Part shown: piece by piece, positions 3,478 through 18,184 of the stretch
Layout of the letters: every line of letters starts with the position of its first letter
Numbering within the stretch: position 1 is the first letter of the stretch
Virus record (IMG/VR): IMGVR_UViG_3300025435_000115
Span: 1-20,887 of that record
DNA length: 20,887 bases
DNA from: a virus
Direction: 5' to 3' (one strand)
Made by a program: the position numbers and the translations under genes
The notes under the pieces: generated by a model
What the model was told of the DNA's origin: nothing
What the model saw: only the letters and a program-made list of their open reading frames with translations
The model's database searches: none

Positions 3478-4797
3478 ATGGGTGTACCCTATACATTCGC
3501 ATCGGCAACAAATTCGATACCCTTATCGCAACTAGATGCCAACTTTAATACCCCAGTTACTATCGGTAGTACTACCGTAGGATTAGGGAATACCACTACT
3601 ACTTTAGCGGGTTTGGCTAATGTCAGCACAACTGCTTTAACAGTTACCAATGACGCTTCTATATCAGGTCTTACTGTTGGTAAGGGTGGTGGTTCTTCTG
3701 CTGCAACTGTTGTTGGTAGTGGTGCTGCTGCTGCTTCTAATGCAAGCGGAACTCCAACAGCTTTTGGTTATAAAGCATTAGCTGTTGATGTTAGCGGTGG
3801 TTTAAATTCTGCTTTTGGTTACCAAGCATTAACTGCAAATACAACAGGCACAGATAATACAGCTATTGGCTCTTATAATGCTTTAAGAAGCAACACATCT
3901 GGAACGGCTAATATTGCTATTGGTCGTGAAGCACTTCAAGCAAACACCACTGCCTCTAACAACACAGCAGTAGGTTATCAAGCTGGATATAGTCAATCTA
4001 CAAACCCATACAACACTTATATTGGCAGACAAGCTGGATATTCTTCAACTGGTTCAGATTGCACTTTTGTAGGTAACGGCTCTGGTTATTACACAACTGG
4101 TTCATTCAATACCTTAATTGGTGATAGTGCTGGTTTCCAAATTACTTCTGGTGCAAAAAACACAGTATTGGGTTGTTTTCCAGGAAATCAAGGCGGTCTA
4201 GACATCCGTACAGCAAGTAACTACATTGTGTTATCTGATGGTGATGGTAATCCTAGAGGTGTGTTTGATTCTAGTGGTAATTTAATTGTTGGTGGTACTT
4301 ACTATTTTGGAGGAAAAATAACATCTGTTACTCCTGCATCTTATACAGAATCTAATTACAGGTCAGATTCCGCAACAGCAGCTGGAACAACTTGGAAACA
4401 TTTTTATGGAACTAGTGGTTCTAATGCAGTAGCAAATATTAATATTTTTGGTAATGGCAATATTCAAAATGCTAATAATAGTTATGGTGCTATTTCCGAT
4501 ATTTCATTAAAAGAAAATATTGTTGATGCAACTCCAAAACTTGAAGATTTATGTAAAGTTAAAATTCGTCAATATAATCTTAAATCAGATGAAACTAAAT
4601 CAAAACAAATTGGGGTTATTGCACAAGAATTAGAAGAAGTTTTTTCTGGAATGATTGAAAAGGATAATGATGGTATTAAAGGCGTCAAATATTCTGTTTT
4701 TGTGCCAATGCTCATTAAAGCAATCCAAGAACTTAACACCTTAGTAACAACCCAAGCAGCGCAAATCGCCGCATTACAAGCTAAAGTAGGAGCATAA
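3478..4797 (+). CDS. Trimeric tail fibre with C-terminal S74 autoprocessing chaperone
   Basis: 439 aa. Residues about 95-230 are YadA-head-like repeats (for example NTAIGSYNAL, NIAIGREALQ, NTAVGYQAGY, NTYIGRQAGY), the left-handed beta-roll pattern of trimeric adhesins and fibres. Residues about 340-439 are an intramolecular chaperone of the Peptidase_S74 family: SDISLKENI, then KIRQYN, QIGVIAQELEEVF and a final coiled coil (AIQELNTLVTTQAAQIAAL). Ser340 and Lys345 sit five residues apart, the spacing of the catalytic pair in endosialidase tailspikes, where the chaperone cuts itself off just before the serine after trimer folding. I therefore expect cleavage before Ser340. The gene follows the hub-like gene by one base. 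Its 3' quarter is much more AT-rich than the rest of the window, suggesting a swapped tip. It is likely a receptor-binding fibre; the S74 call is strong. Confidence 0.88.
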   Translation: MGVPYTFASATNSIPLSQLDANFNTPVTIGSTTVGLGNTTTTLAGLANVSTTALTVTNDASISGLTVGKGGGSSAATVVGSGAAAASNASGTPTAFGYKALAVDVSGGLNSAFGYQALTANTTGTDNTAIGSYNALRSNTSGTANIAIGREALQANTTASNNTAVGYQAGYSQSTNPYNTYIGRQAGYSSTGSDCTFVGNGSGYYTTGSFNTLIGDSAGFQITSGAKNTVLGCFPGNQGGLDIRTASNYIVLSDGDGNPRGVFDSSGNLIVGGTYYFGGKITSVTPASYTESNYRSDSATAAGTTWKHFYGTSGSNAVANINIFGNGNIQNANNSYGAISDISLKENIVDATPKLEDLCKVKIRQYNLKSDETKSKQIGVIAQELEEVFSGMIEKDNDGIKGVKYSVFVPMLIKAIQELNTLVTTQAAQIAALQAKVGA

Positions 4798-4799
4798 AA

Positions 4800-4847
4800 A
4801 TGGAATTAACTAAAGAAGAACAAGTAGCACAAGACTATAAAGCATAA
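4800..4847 (+). pseudogene. 15-codon ORF resembling the N-terminus of the downstream 76-aa protein; possible remnant
   Basis: A short ORF, ATG 4800 to TAA 4845-4847, encodes MELTKEEQVAQDYKA. It starts 2 nt after the fibre stop and its stop overlaps the ATG of the endonuclease gene (TAATG). The peptide aligns without gaps to residues 4-18 of the 76-aa protein at 5509 (ITELTPAQQVQKDYVSA): E, L, T, Q, V, D and Y match in register. The simplest reading is the beginning of an ancestral gene truncated when the endonuclease gene arrived. Alternatives are a diverged duplication or a translation-coupling leader peptide. The ORF is certain as sequence; its origin is inferred. Confidence 0.55.
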
Positions 4848-5512
4848 TGCTCTATATTTACGAACATATCCGCCCTGATACCAATGCCATCTTTTATGTT
4901 GGCAAGGGTACTGACAAGCGTATGCACTCCAAGCACCGCAGAAATGCCCATTGGAATAACATTGTGCGTAAAGCTGGCGGATTTACTGTTCGTGAAGTAT
5001 GTAGGCATGAAGATGAAGAATTGCTGTTTTTGGCAGAACAAGAACGGATTGACCAGTTAAAGCGTTTAGGTATTAAGTTAGCCAATAAGACGGATGGTGG
5101 CGAAGGTCCAAGCGGTTATCGCCATACAGAAGAAACTAAGCGTAAGATTGCTGAATTACAGACAGGTGAAAAGCATTGGAGATTTGGAAAGCAAGCTACT
5201 GAAGAAGAAATAGCAAAATTAAAATATGCTAGGTCTAAATTAGTTTTTACTCCTGAAATTCGTAAGAAAATTTCTGATGCTGGAAAAGGTGTACCAAACA
5301 GCCCTGAACACAGAGCCAATATATCTAAAGCAAAGCAAAATGGCGGTCATCACATGGCTTTAACTGTGGAATATGATGGCAAAAGATTTGATTGTATTAA
5401 AGCATTATGCGTTTATTTGAATAAATCACACGGAACTGTAAATGGATGGATTAGAAATAATCCTGAAAAATATGGTATTACTGTTATTGGTAGAACAAAG
5501 GACTTGAAATGA
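4847..5512 (+). CDS. GIY-YIG homing-type endonuclease with NUMOD3 motifs
   Basis: 221 aa. The GIY-YIG nuclease domain spans about residues 1-88: YIY at 3-5, YVGKG at 17-21, an Arg at 25, the candidate catalytic Glu64 in AEQERIDQL and Asn80 in LANKTDGGEG, which match the tyrosines, Arg, Glu and Asn of the family. Residues about 89-125 and 132-163 carry NUMOD3-like DNA-binding motifs (SGYRHTEETKRKIAE; SPEHRANISKAK), and residues about 175-205 look like a NUMOD1/IENR-type helix-turn-helix (FDCIKALCVYLNKSHGTVNGW). This is the layout of free-standing mobile nucleases that cut an allele lacking them and spread by repair. The start overlaps the stop of the 15-codon ORF, and the end overlaps the next gene by 4 nt. 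All catalytic positions look intact. GC is higher in the nuclease half (about 43% by hand count) than in the DNA-binding half (about 33%). Confidence 0.9.
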   Translation: MLYIYEHIRPDTNAIFYVGKGTDKRMHSKHRRNAHWNNIVRKAGGFTVREVCRHEDEELLFLAEQERIDQLKRLGIKLANKTDGGEGPSGYRHTEETKRKIAELQTGEKHWRFGKQATEEEIAKLKYARSKLVFTPEIRKKISDAGKGVPNSPEHRANISKAKQNGGHHMALTVEYDGKRFDCIKALCVYLNKSHGTVNGWIRNNPEKYGITVIGRTKDLK

Positions 5513-5739
5513 CAACTATTACTGAATTAACTCCTGCACAGCAGGTTCAAAAAGATTATGTTTCAGCTATGGATTCGGTCAATCTTATCAATGCAGGAAA
5601 ACCTGCTGATATGACTGACGAAGATTGGGCTGATACAGTTAAGCGCAATAAAGAGCATTTAGAGATTCAAATTGCTAAAGGTTCTGAGTATTATGGTTCT
5701 AATGATTTAACACCTTTTGAAGAAGCTATTGCTAAGTAA
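5509..5739 (+). CDS. Small conserved fibre-adjacent phage protein, unknown function
   Basis: 76 aa, starting at an ATGA overlap with the endonuclease gene. It is acidic and predicted helical, with a core INAGKPADMTDEDWADTVKR followed by NKEHLEIQIAKG. I recognise DWADT(V)xRNxEHLxI as a recurring pattern in short proteins encoded just after tail-fibre genes, whose function I do not know; an accessory or chaperone role near the fibre is possible. Its first 18 residues resemble the 15-codon ORF at 4800, so the endonuclease gene appears to lie between a 5' remnant and this intact copy. No signal peptide or membrane helix. Confidence 0.7.
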   Translation: MTTITELTPAQQVQKDYVSAMDSVNLINAGKPADMTDEDWADTVKRNKEHLEIQIAKGSEYYGSNDLTPFEEAIAK

Positions 5740-5765
5740 TTTTTAACAACCGTAAGGGGATATAA

Positions 5766-5939
5766 ATGGAAGATGTAACAATTAAACTGGAATTGTCTGT
5801 TAACGAAGTAAACTACATTTTGCAAATGTTAGGTGAATTACCGACCAAAACAGGTGCATGGAATTTGTTAGCAAACATTAAGAATCAGGCAGATCCACAA
5901 GTACCTGCACCAGAACAAAAGGAAGAAACCGTACAATGA
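5766..5939 (+). CDS. 57-aa conserved phage protein
   Basis: ATG 5766 to TGA 5937-5939 encodes 57 residues. A strong ribosome site, AAGGGGA at 5754-5760, lies just upstream. The stop overlaps the next ATG (5936). The protein opens MEDVTIKLELSVNEVNYILQ and continues MLGELPTKTGAWNLLANI, a short beta strand then two helices, followed by a Pro/Gln/Glu-rich tail. The core (a helix, LGELP, then a helix ending in xxNQA) is a pattern I associate with small proteins common in tailed phages; the function is unknown. Strong initiation signal and tight packing make it very probably real. Confidence 0.75.
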   Translation: MEDVTIKLELSVNEVNYILQMLGELPTKTGAWNLLANIKNQADPQVPAPEQKEETVQ

Positions 5940-6286
5940 GCGTATCCGCAGCCTTCACTCCGTTAGGTAACACCGTAGTGCTTACGGCTGCTACCTCAGC
6001 GCCCACAGCCGTTCAAGTCAACTCGAATAGTGCTTTTGGGGGTAATCAGTACCGCATCATCAACGCATCCACTACTCAGGGATGTTTTCTTTCGTATGCT
6101 CAAACCCAATCGGTAGCGCAGTCTAATTGCGTTATTCCTACAGGTTCAGGCGCAAACAGTACAACGACTTTGTACATTTTGCCTAATACGGATGAAATTA
6201 TTACTTTTGTACCTAATGCGTGGTTTACCGCTATTACCGCAGCAAATTCAGCAACTTTGTACATAACTAACGGTGATGGGATGTAA
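5936..6286 (+). CDS. 116-aa beta-rich virion-type protein, paralogue of the gene at 14461
   Basis: 116 aa, with the start overlapping the preceding stop (ATGA). It is composed of short beta segments with many Thr, Ala, Ser and Asn residues ([51 protein letters not shown]). The gene at 14461 encodes another protein of 116 aa that aligns along its whole length: AF.P.G.TV near the N-terminus, a central Pro-x-Asn-x2-Tyr-like turn and the ending A(T/S)(L/V)YIT.G(D/E)G(L/M). The fold looks like a small beta-sandwich. Lying next to the second fibre gene, it may be a virion decoration or fibre-associated protein, but no motif gives a specific function. Confidence 0.7.
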
Positions 6287-14461: not shown

Positions 14462-14811
14462 TGGCAAACAATATCGCTTTTCAACCGATGGGAAAAACGG
14501 TAAAAGTAGCCGTTACTGGTGCTGCAAACACGCAGTCTAATGTATATACCATCACCTCAGACAGCCCTGTTAACCAGTATTTTATTTCTAACGCTGATGT
14601 CAATAATGCTGTTTATGTTTGGATCAACCCTACCAACACTTTCAATGTAGCGTTGCCTGATAACGGTCCTGTTTATGTGATTTCTTTGCCACCTTATTCT
14701 TACAAAGTAATTACTGGTCCACAAGTTAGCCCTACAGGTAGTGTTTATGCAAGAGTAATTGGTGATGCTGCTAACGCTTCTGTTTACATCACACCAGGAG
14801 AAGGTCTGTAA
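14461..14811 (+). CDS. 116-aa beta-rich protein, paralogue of the gene at 5936
   Basis: Its ATG overlaps the preceding stop codon (TAATG). Like the protein encoded at 5936, it has 116 residues, opens with a short AF.P.GKTV strand, passes through Asn/Ser-rich turns (VNQYFISNADVNNAVYVWIN) and ends SVYITPGEGL, compared with [10 protein letters not shown] in the other. Pro/Tyr turns (SLPPYSYKVITGP) lie at the same place as [16 protein letters not shown] beta-sandwich fold is likely. Two diverged copies 8.5 kb apart, one beside a fibre and one in a small-gene block, suggest two related but distinct virion or surface roles. Confidence 0.7.
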   Translation: MANNIAFQPMGKTVKVAVTGAANTQSNVYTITSDSPVNQYFISNADVNNAVYVWINPTNTFNVALPDNGPVYVISLPPYSYKVITGPQVSPTGSVYARVIGDAANASVYITPGEGL

Positions 14812-14951
14812 TGCCGTTGGCAAAAGGATCATCTAAGAAAACCGTATCCCGTAACATCAGCAAGATGATGCGGGAAGGTTATCCACAAAAGCAAGCTGTC
14901 GCTGCTGCTCTTTCTACCGCTAGAAAAACCAAAAGAAAAAGTAAGCGCTAG
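14811..14951 (+). CDS. 46-aa highly basic phage protein
   Basis: ATG 14811 overlaps the preceding stop; TAG 14949-14951. The protein reads MPLAKGSSKKTVSRNISKMM, then REGYPQKQAVAAALSTARK and a Lys/Arg tail (TKRKSKR). This is a widespread phage micro-protein type: basic, with a helix REGYPQKQAVAAAL. It has about 14 Lys/Arg and one Glu, so nucleic-acid contact is plausible. Three further basic micro-proteins lie at 17687-18184. Function unknown. Confidence 0.75.
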   Translation: MPLAKGSSKKTVSRNISKMMREGYPQKQAVAAALSTARKTKRKSKR

Positions 14952-17178: not shown

Positions 17179-17694
17179 ATGCAACAAACTTATGATGAAG
17201 CGTTCCAATACTTAATGAAGTCCGAAGGAGGATTCGTTAATGACCCTCGTGATAGCGGGGGTGTTACAAACTGGGGAGTAACCAAAGCAGCCTGGGAAGA
17301 TTATTTAGGTCGAACAGTCACGATTGATGAAATGAAAGCGCTTACACAGACAATGGTTAAGCCTTTTTACAAGGATCGTTACTGGAATACCGCAGGATGC
17401 GATTCTTTTCAAAGAGGTGTTGATTATGTGGTTTTCGACTTTGGTGTTAACGCAGGAGTTCGCAGATCAATTAAGTGCTTACAACAAGCAATTGGAGCAG
17501 ATCCAGATGGAGTATTGGGATCTGTTACTCAAGCCCTTTTACAGCAACAAAATGCCTTGGACCTTATTCCAAAATTCTCTGCTGCCAAAAGAGCTTTTTA
17601 CGAAGGATTGAACAAGCCAGCCTTTCTAAAAGGGTGGTTAAATAGAGTTGACGAAGTGGAAAAAAACGCTTTAAATATGGTTAAGAATGGCTAA
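17179..17694 (+). CDS. GH108 endolysin (N-acetylmuramidase) with peptidoglycan-binding domain
   Basis: 171 aa from ATG 17179, preferred over ATG 17161 because AAGTAGG (17166-17172) is properly spaced before it. The N-terminal catalytic domain carries FQYLMKSEGGFVNDPRDSGG followed by TNWGVTKAAWEDYLG: Glu16 of the EGG motif is the expected catalytic acid of glycoside hydrolase family 108. The C-terminal half (GVDYVVFDFGVNAGVRRSIK; AIGADPDGVLGSVTQALL) matches the PG_binding_3 domain usually joined to it. It cuts the glycan chain of the host cell wall. No signal peptide is visible, so export depends on the holin. It follows the spanins by 7 nt. Confidence 0.92.
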   Translation: MQQTYDEAFQYLMKSEGGFVNDPRDSGGVTNWGVTKAAWEDYLGRTVTIDEMKALTQTMVKPFYKDRYWNTAGCDSFQRGVDYVVFDFGVNAGVRRSIKCLQQAIGADPDGVLGSVTQALLQQQNALDLIPKFSAAKRAFYEGLNKPAFLKGWLNRVDEVEKNALNMVKNG

Positions 17695-17821
17695 AGGAAA
17701 CTACCCTACCAACACTACAAGCGCTGCCGAAAGACGGATGGGCGTAGGTGGAGGTTTGACCCAGAAAAAAGCGGTAAAACGCAATAATCTTAAGGTCAAG
17801 AGAAAGGCTACTCGTGGCTAA
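17687..17821 (+). CDS. 44-aa basic micro-protein
   Basis: ATG 17687 lies inside the end of the endolysin gene; TAA 17819-17821. The protein reads MAKGNYPTNTTSAAERRMGV, then GGGLTQKKAVKRNNLKVKRK and ATRG. It has about 12 Lys/Arg and one Glu. AERRMGVGGGL followed by a basic tail resembles the phage micro-protein style of the neighbours. Its 3' end overlaps the next gene by 8 nt. Function unknown; too short for firm family placement. Confidence 0.6.
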   Translation: MAKGNYPTNTTSAAERRMGVGGGLTQKKAVKRNNLKVKRKATRG

Positions 17822-18035
17822 TGTCAATCTTTCCGTAGGCAGAGGTGAAAAGCTATCCGTTTCTAAGGGTGGCGGTCTGACTGCGAAAGGGCGTAGAAAA
17901 TATAACAAAGCCACAGGATCAAAACTAAAAGCACCCCAAAAATCAGGCAGTCGGCATCGCTCATTTTGTGCCAGGTCTAAACATTGGAAGGGTGAAAGAG
18001 GAAAAGCTGCCAGAAGAAGATGGGGGTGCAGATGA
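17814..18035 (+). CDS. 73-aa basic phage protein with SKGGGLTAKGRRKYNKATGS motif
   Basis: Begins at GTG 17814, with AGAAAGG at 17801-17807 six bases before it; no ATG fits the frame. The core SVSKGGGLTAKGRRKYNKAT followed by GSKLKAPQKSGSRHRSFCAR is one I recognise as a conserved short phage protein; a Cys later in the chain (RRRWGC) pairs in the family with the first. It is very basic. Role unknown: suggested functions for such proteins range from DNA binding to head-internal components. It overlaps the following gene by 4 nt (ATGA). Confidence 0.75.
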   Translation: MANVNLSVGRGEKLSVSKGGGLTAKGRRKYNKATGSKLKAPQKSGSRHRSFCARSKHWKGERGKAARRRWGCR

Positions 18036-18184
18036 AGCCAGGACTTTATGCCAATATCCATAAAAAGCGTGAGCGTATCCGTAAAGGATCGGGCGAGAAA
18101 ATGAGAACGCCTGGTTCAAAAGGCGCTCCCACAGATAAAGCCTTTCGCAAAGCCAAGAAAACCGCAAGGAAATCCAAACGGTGA
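18032..18184 (+). CDS. 50-aa basic phage protein of the KPGLYANIHKKRERI type
   Basis: ATG 18032 (ATGA overlap) to TGA 18182-18184. The sequence MKPGLYANIHKKRERIRKGS, GEKMRTPGSKGAPTDKAFRK and a Lys/Arg end (TARKSKR) is a very common phage micro-protein pattern; KPGLYANI and GSGEKMRxPGSKGAPT are its hallmarks. Function unknown. It is the last rightward gene before the convergent junction, 29 nt from the stop of the leftward glycosyltransferase gene. Confidence 0.78.
   Translation: MKPGLYANIHKKRERIRKGSGEKMRTPGSKGAPTDKAFRKAKKTARKSKR

Follow-up and report, generated by a model that had tools for sequence, protein, structure and literature searches.

A small gene of the tail region is interrupted, in the 20,887-nucleotide stretch of virus DNA analysed here (IMG/VR record IMGVR_UViG_3300025435_000115, positions 1 to 20,887, called the window from here on), by what is very probably a 721-bp homing cassette with a built-in replacement gene end. 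Judging from the alignments with relatives, the resident gene was once uninterrupted, the cassette entered it after codon 15, and the rest of the gene is now read from a start carried by the cassette. Comparison between loci shows insertion, replacement of the gene end, and joint movement of this end with an endonuclease gene. On the other hand, cleavage, repair by homology and self-immunity would be expected from the enzyme family, and the rescue of the target gene is suggested by intact reading frames and ribosome-binding sites.

Organisation of the locus

The features of the locus are listed in Table 1, where related loci carry labels of the form L001. The open reading frames and overlaps described in an earlier sequence-only reading are all present: the 15-codon frame (4800-4847), the GIY-YIG gene (4847-5512) and the 76-aa frame (5509-5739), linked by TAATG and ATGA. 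The TAA that closes the frame of the remnant (4845-4847) is made by the cassette, and TAATG (4845-4849) combines this stop with the start of the endonuclease gene, while ATGA is the overlap between the end of the endonuclease gene and the start of the 76-aa gene. Elsewhere in the window, three frames (14811-14951, 17687-17821 and 18020-18184) encode small lysine/arginine-rich proteins, two of which match PHROGs 2423 and 16028, the third matching none.

Table 1. Features of the interrupted locus (window positions) and list of the loci with mirror-image layout
Feature	Position	Strand	Evidence
Tail fibre gene, C-terminal S74 chaperone domain, outside the cassette	3478..4797	+	Pfam PF13884, E 4e-10; PHROG tail fibre matches
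Remnant of the resident target gene: its first 15 codons, now stranded (MELTKEEQVAQDYKA)	4800..4844	+	44/45 nt identity to intact-gene starts of L067, L039, L034
Inserted cassette, 721 bp: TA, endonuclease gene, ribosome-binding site, substitute 5' end	4845..5565	+	Edges of alignment with relatives; 99-100% match in L001/L082
Gene of a 221-aa homing endonuclease with a GIY-YIG domain, NUMOD3 and a DNA-binding domain like that of I-TevI	4847..5512	+	Profile, domain and fold matches
AAAGGA, probable ribosome-binding site of the rebuilt target gene, within the endonuclease gene	5497..5502	+	Sequence; AAAGGA ahead of the new start in 12/12 loci of the class
Substitute 5' end carried by the cassette: 19 codons (MTTITELTPAQQVQKDYVS), from a diverged allele	5509..5565	+	100% in L001/L082; best intact match 34/57 nt
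Resident body of the target gene, AMDSVNLINAG to stop	5566..5739	+	Alignment with intact relatives (L007 95%, from 5564 on)
Chimeric target gene as rebuilt, encoding a small tail-region protein of 76 aa	5509..5739	+	Family in hundreds of phage loci, beside fibre genes
Next gene, 57 aa, right-side resident marker	5766..5939	+	Up to 100% aa identity in endonuclease-free L002-L007, L011-L013, L016
Mirror-image loci	L104-L108, L110-L112, L114, L117-L120, L126, L131, L132, L137-L139		

GIY-YIG enzymes are frequent in group I introns, which is the point in favour of a self-splicing intron or intein whose removal would join remnant and body as RNA or as protein. Such an arrangement is hardly credible at this locus. 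The endonuclease gene contains a start and a stop of its own, and the complete 5' end that the body possesses would be redundant after splicing. Besides, a search for intron RNA at 4300-6000 gave no Rfam match (E up to 1) and no group I intron was recognised, and the intron reading was rejected on this negative result.

Insertion into an uninterrupted gene

The remnant aligns without gaps to the 76-aa protein, as had been noticed from the sequence, at residues 5-19 instead of the residues 4-18 originally given. The accompanying statement that the two N-termini differ at most synonymous sites was overstated, since seven of the 15 residues are identical and only three of these seven use a different codon (CAA/CAG, GTA/GTT, GAC/GAT). 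The two gene starts of the window share 27 of 45 nt, and the similarity between the two peptides taken alone does not exceed chance (local score 36, with a maximum of 41 and a mean of 24 for shuffled sequences), so relatives were needed to decide. Their kinship is secure because the remnant is identical, at 44 of 45 nt, to the starts of intact genes in other phages.

A search of IMG/VR with the 76-aa protein returned 80 loci, nearly all of which carry a single uninterrupted gene, for instance MELTKEQQVAQDYKAAMDSVNLINAGKPADMTDADW in L014 and MELTKEQQVAQDYKA-AMDSVNLINAGKPADMTDADW in L007. The uninterrupted gene predicted for endonuclease-free relatives, starting with MELTKEQQVAQDYKA and continuing with AMDSVNLINAGKPADMTD, was thus observed, and the gene to the right of the target in the window (57 aa) has a 100% amino acid match in several of these relatives. 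The alignment to L007, L003 and L014 ends at window position 4844 and restarts at 5564, with two nucleotides (CA) shared, which defines an insert of 721 bp (4845-5565). This insert is made up of TA, the endonuclease gene and 57 nt coding for MTTITELTPAQQVQKDYVS, in place of the first 15 codons of the resident gene; when the flanks are joined without it, they read MELTKEEQVAQDYKAAMDSVNLINAGKPADMTDEDW followed by the remainder of the gene.

The remnants of five loci match intact alleles at 44/45, 44/44, 52/53, 48/48 and 44/44 nt, while those of L087, L088, L100 and L101 had no close intact match among the collected loci. Most substitute starts are without a close intact match, the exception being the start of L101, which agrees with intact L182 at 52 of 60 positions. 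The donor allele of the window's substitute start was not found, and a degenerate peptide pattern run over IMG/VR recovered only the L001 contig. In a frequency sample of 160 loci gathered by similarity to the target gene, 157 have no adjacent endonuclease relative and three are filled, one of them being the query's own contig. The cassette is consequently a present/absent polymorphism with empty alleles, at a site whose position is fixed in the nine remnant-bearing loci.

Joint movement of endonuclease and substitute start

Pairwise identities of the segments, in the 5' set as well as in the mirror-image set described below, show the replacement gene end moving with the endonuclease. The window and L001 are 46% identical in the fibre gene, 94% in the remnant, 99% in the endonuclease gene and 100% in the substitute start (both at DNA level) and 82% in the body, and the body of L001 has the DWKGTDAEWADVITRN form, as in other alleles. 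L087 and L088, two loci near opposite ends of one 40,421-base contig and at distant fibre loci, are identical in endonuclease gene and start (100% each) and differ in remnant (94%), body (84%) and fibres, a comparison on which the possible misassembly of metagenome contigs at repeats bears the most. The substitute starts of L100 and L103 are 97% identical over bodies at 59%, and those of L084 and L085 are 84% identical over bodies at 67%. From these sequence comparisons, the endonuclease and the substitute start travel jointly between different alleles.

The sequence-only reading had left two possibilities, an insert bringing along a flank of a diverged allele and two old paralogues standing in tandem, between or into which the endonuclease gene was inserted. 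The first is favoured because the substitute start moves with the endonuclease across alleles (window and L001, L087 and L088, L100 and L103) and the rest of the gene is local. The second is very improbable. The divergence of the two N-termini would fit it, and two copies of the target gene do occur in some genomes, as in L087/L088, but these copies lie at distant fibre loci, the remnants all end at about the same codon, and the substitute start covaries with the endonuclease over different bodies. Moreover, a second copy of the target gene within 1.5 kb is absent from all 157 uninterrupted loci, by which tandem paralogues are largely refuted. Neither tandem short frames nor a separate 15-aa frame was present in those loci, in agreement with the homing insertion originally proposed.

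One endonuclease clade at one site

The layout of the window occurs in 12 loci on 11 contigs, the window counted. The nine sequences of this 5'-replacement class included in the tree form one clade (support 100/97), all endonucleases of the class sit in the same gene, and the remnants end only a few codons apart. In each of the 12 loci the new start is preceded by AAAGGA and the reading frames are intact. A remnant is absent from L086 and L102, so that the left junction varies and the stranded remnant is probably dispensable; the L103 locus is truncated at the position of the remnant. The hybrid gene may be expressed.

The endonuclease of the window matches NUMOD3 (Pfam, E 3e-13) and the homing endonuclease family PHROG 314 (E 3e-23). 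A profile of 46 relatives, compared with the PDB, matched the I-TevI DNA-binding domain (1i3j, E 2e-6) and a GIY-YIG structure (9u75, E 6e-5), and residues Y5, Y17, G19, R25, E64 and N80 are invariant across the 46; a weak match to the Pfam GIY-YIG (LEM-3-like) family was obtained for 12 of them. The structure model built from the 46 sequences (pLDDT 88.5) superseded a poor one from 8 sequences (pLDDT 65) and gave the same top folds, including 1i3j, with Foldseek E-values of 0.01 or weaker. Sequence and model together predict a GIY-YIG fold with DNA-binding modules of the NUMOD and I-TevI types, and cleavage would be the activity expected of this enzyme family. No cultured phage with the cassette was found, the best isolate match to the enzyme of the window being below 40% identity, and one scan of cellular genomes gave no confirmed relative of the endonuclease. 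Members of the target-gene family occur at hundreds of phage loci, with 197 and 458 related stretches retrieved. The product is probably tail-associated, since in the window, as in annotated phages, the gene comes after fibre genes.

It is unlikely that ordinary homologous recombination among the tail modules of phages spread the cassette, with the endonuclease as a passenger or inactive. The fibre regions are mosaic, the flanking homology is enough for exchange, and general recombination with an inactive enzyme would give similar patterns. However, the GIY-YIG residues are conserved and the frames are intact in divergent members, whereas passengers are expected to decay; besides, one endonuclease clade is exclusive to one site, and identical cassettes lie at two loci of one contig (L087/L088).

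Mirror-image cassettes and a second target

In 19 further loci, some of them near-identical, the endonuclease gene is located after the target gene (Table 1). The order is then a substitute 3' end, the endonuclease and the stranded resident 3' end, which is fused to the endonuclease, whose C-terminus thus ends in the C-terminal sequence of the target (KELAKGAEYYGSNDLTPFENAVK in L111, KTKDLAPLQAASA in L104). L112 and L114 are 81% identical in the body, 100% in the substitute tail, 100% in the endonuclease, 89% in the stranded tail and 34% downstream; for L131 and L132 the values are 82% (body), 95% (substitute tail), 98-99% (endonuclease) and 78% (stranded tail). In these pairs the substitute tail, which ends the upstream copy, varies together with the endonuclease, unlike the body and the stranded tail. 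By this comparison, the mirror-image loci are 3'-end replacements, belonging to two separate endonuclease groups.

The 5' layout was also found in the gene of an unrelated tail protein (L136:2923-5498). There, a remnant (MSVKDNFPTTRPSLLLD) is followed by a related endonuclease, and an ATGA overlap leads into a complete tail protein starting with MSVKDNFSPIKPSLLLDFANAKVL.

Other arrangements were recorded as well. In L121, L122, L129, L134 and L156, related endonucleases lie right downstream of an intact target copy and no tail is stranded, the first four having a C-terminal cysteine/histidine motif (WHFDxCK). In L019, L022, L024, L026 and L067, related GIY-YIG genes are non-adjacent, an uninterrupted target lying some 1.3-1.5 kb upstream of them.

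Proposed mechanism and implications

During co-infection, the endonuclease would cut cassette-free alleles near codons 15-20. Repair of the break would copy the cassette, with the remnant serving as the left homology arm and the conserved AMDSVNLINAG stretch as the right one. The substitute start would keep the phage gene functional, and its divergence may shield the filled site from cutting. The cassette would depend on translation already going on in the operon: translation of the endonuclease could be fed by the resident start and stop (TAATG), and that of the rebuilt gene by the end of the endonuclease gene (ATGA and AAAGGA).

We lean, though only slightly, towards a wider reading, in which phages harbour a GIY-YIG family whose general strategy is 'cut and repair': each cassette would bring a recoded replacement for the displaced target end (the 5' end in one clade, the 3' end in others, with at least two tail genes, unrelated to each other, as targets), thereby sparing the phage and perhaps being self-immune. 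Engineered homing drives carry a recoded rescue copy, and the cassettes would be their natural counterpart. A selfish gene could in this way invade a coding sequence without intron, intein or gene loss, by means of a replacement end. Since phage examples exist for either end of the gene within a single family, and hundreds of empty alleles can be compared with them, the roles in rescue and self-immunity are testable. The cassettes would also explain short orphan frames beside phage endonucleases and the chimeric origin of tail-region proteins.

Comparison with known systems

In the open-licence papers searched, no phage report of replacement gene ends was found, only split genes of the T4 type. 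In T4, mobA in the topoisomerase genes 39/60 is, as in the window, a phage homing endonuclease gene that splits another gene; the downstream part acquires a start of its own, and a nearby sequence change may protect against cutting (PMC2988022, PMC5009743). However, T4 has two cooperating polypeptides and a 50-nt bypass, and MobA is an HNH enzyme (PMC2988022, PMC5009743), whereas in the window a substitute 5' end rebuilds one complete polypeptide. The mobE gene in nrdA of Aeh1 and the GIY-YIG seg genes of T4 are also free-standing phage endonuclease genes, and the overlapping stop and start of T4 mobE (UAAUGA) resembles that of the window (PMC2988022). Unlike the window cassette, Aeh1 mobE leaves a split gene and the seg genes are intergenic, no substitute gene end being described (PMC2988022).

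Cassettes with replacement ends are of a kind known from fungal mitochondria. Tremella mitochondrial introns with N-terminal duplication carry, like the cassette, a homologous foreign piece and exchange 5' gene fragments, but these elements are described as introns (PMC7315562), whereas the endonuclease of the window is free-standing and no intron was found there. Mobile ORFs have formed gene hybrids in Allomyces (atp6) and Glomus (atp6, atp9, cox2 and nad3) (PMC3630166). As in the cassette, the endonuclease gene enters a protein-coding gene, brings a diverged replacement end and leaves the native end stranded; some of these ORFs are in frame with the stranded end, and the one in atp9 uses a GIY-YIG enzyme (PMC3630166). 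The fungal elements are mitochondrial, replace C-termini and mostly encode LAGLIDADG enzymes (PMC3630166), whereas the element of the window has a phage host and replaces a 5' end. The phage cassettes also differ from the fungal mobile ORFs in having mirror-image forms within one gene family.
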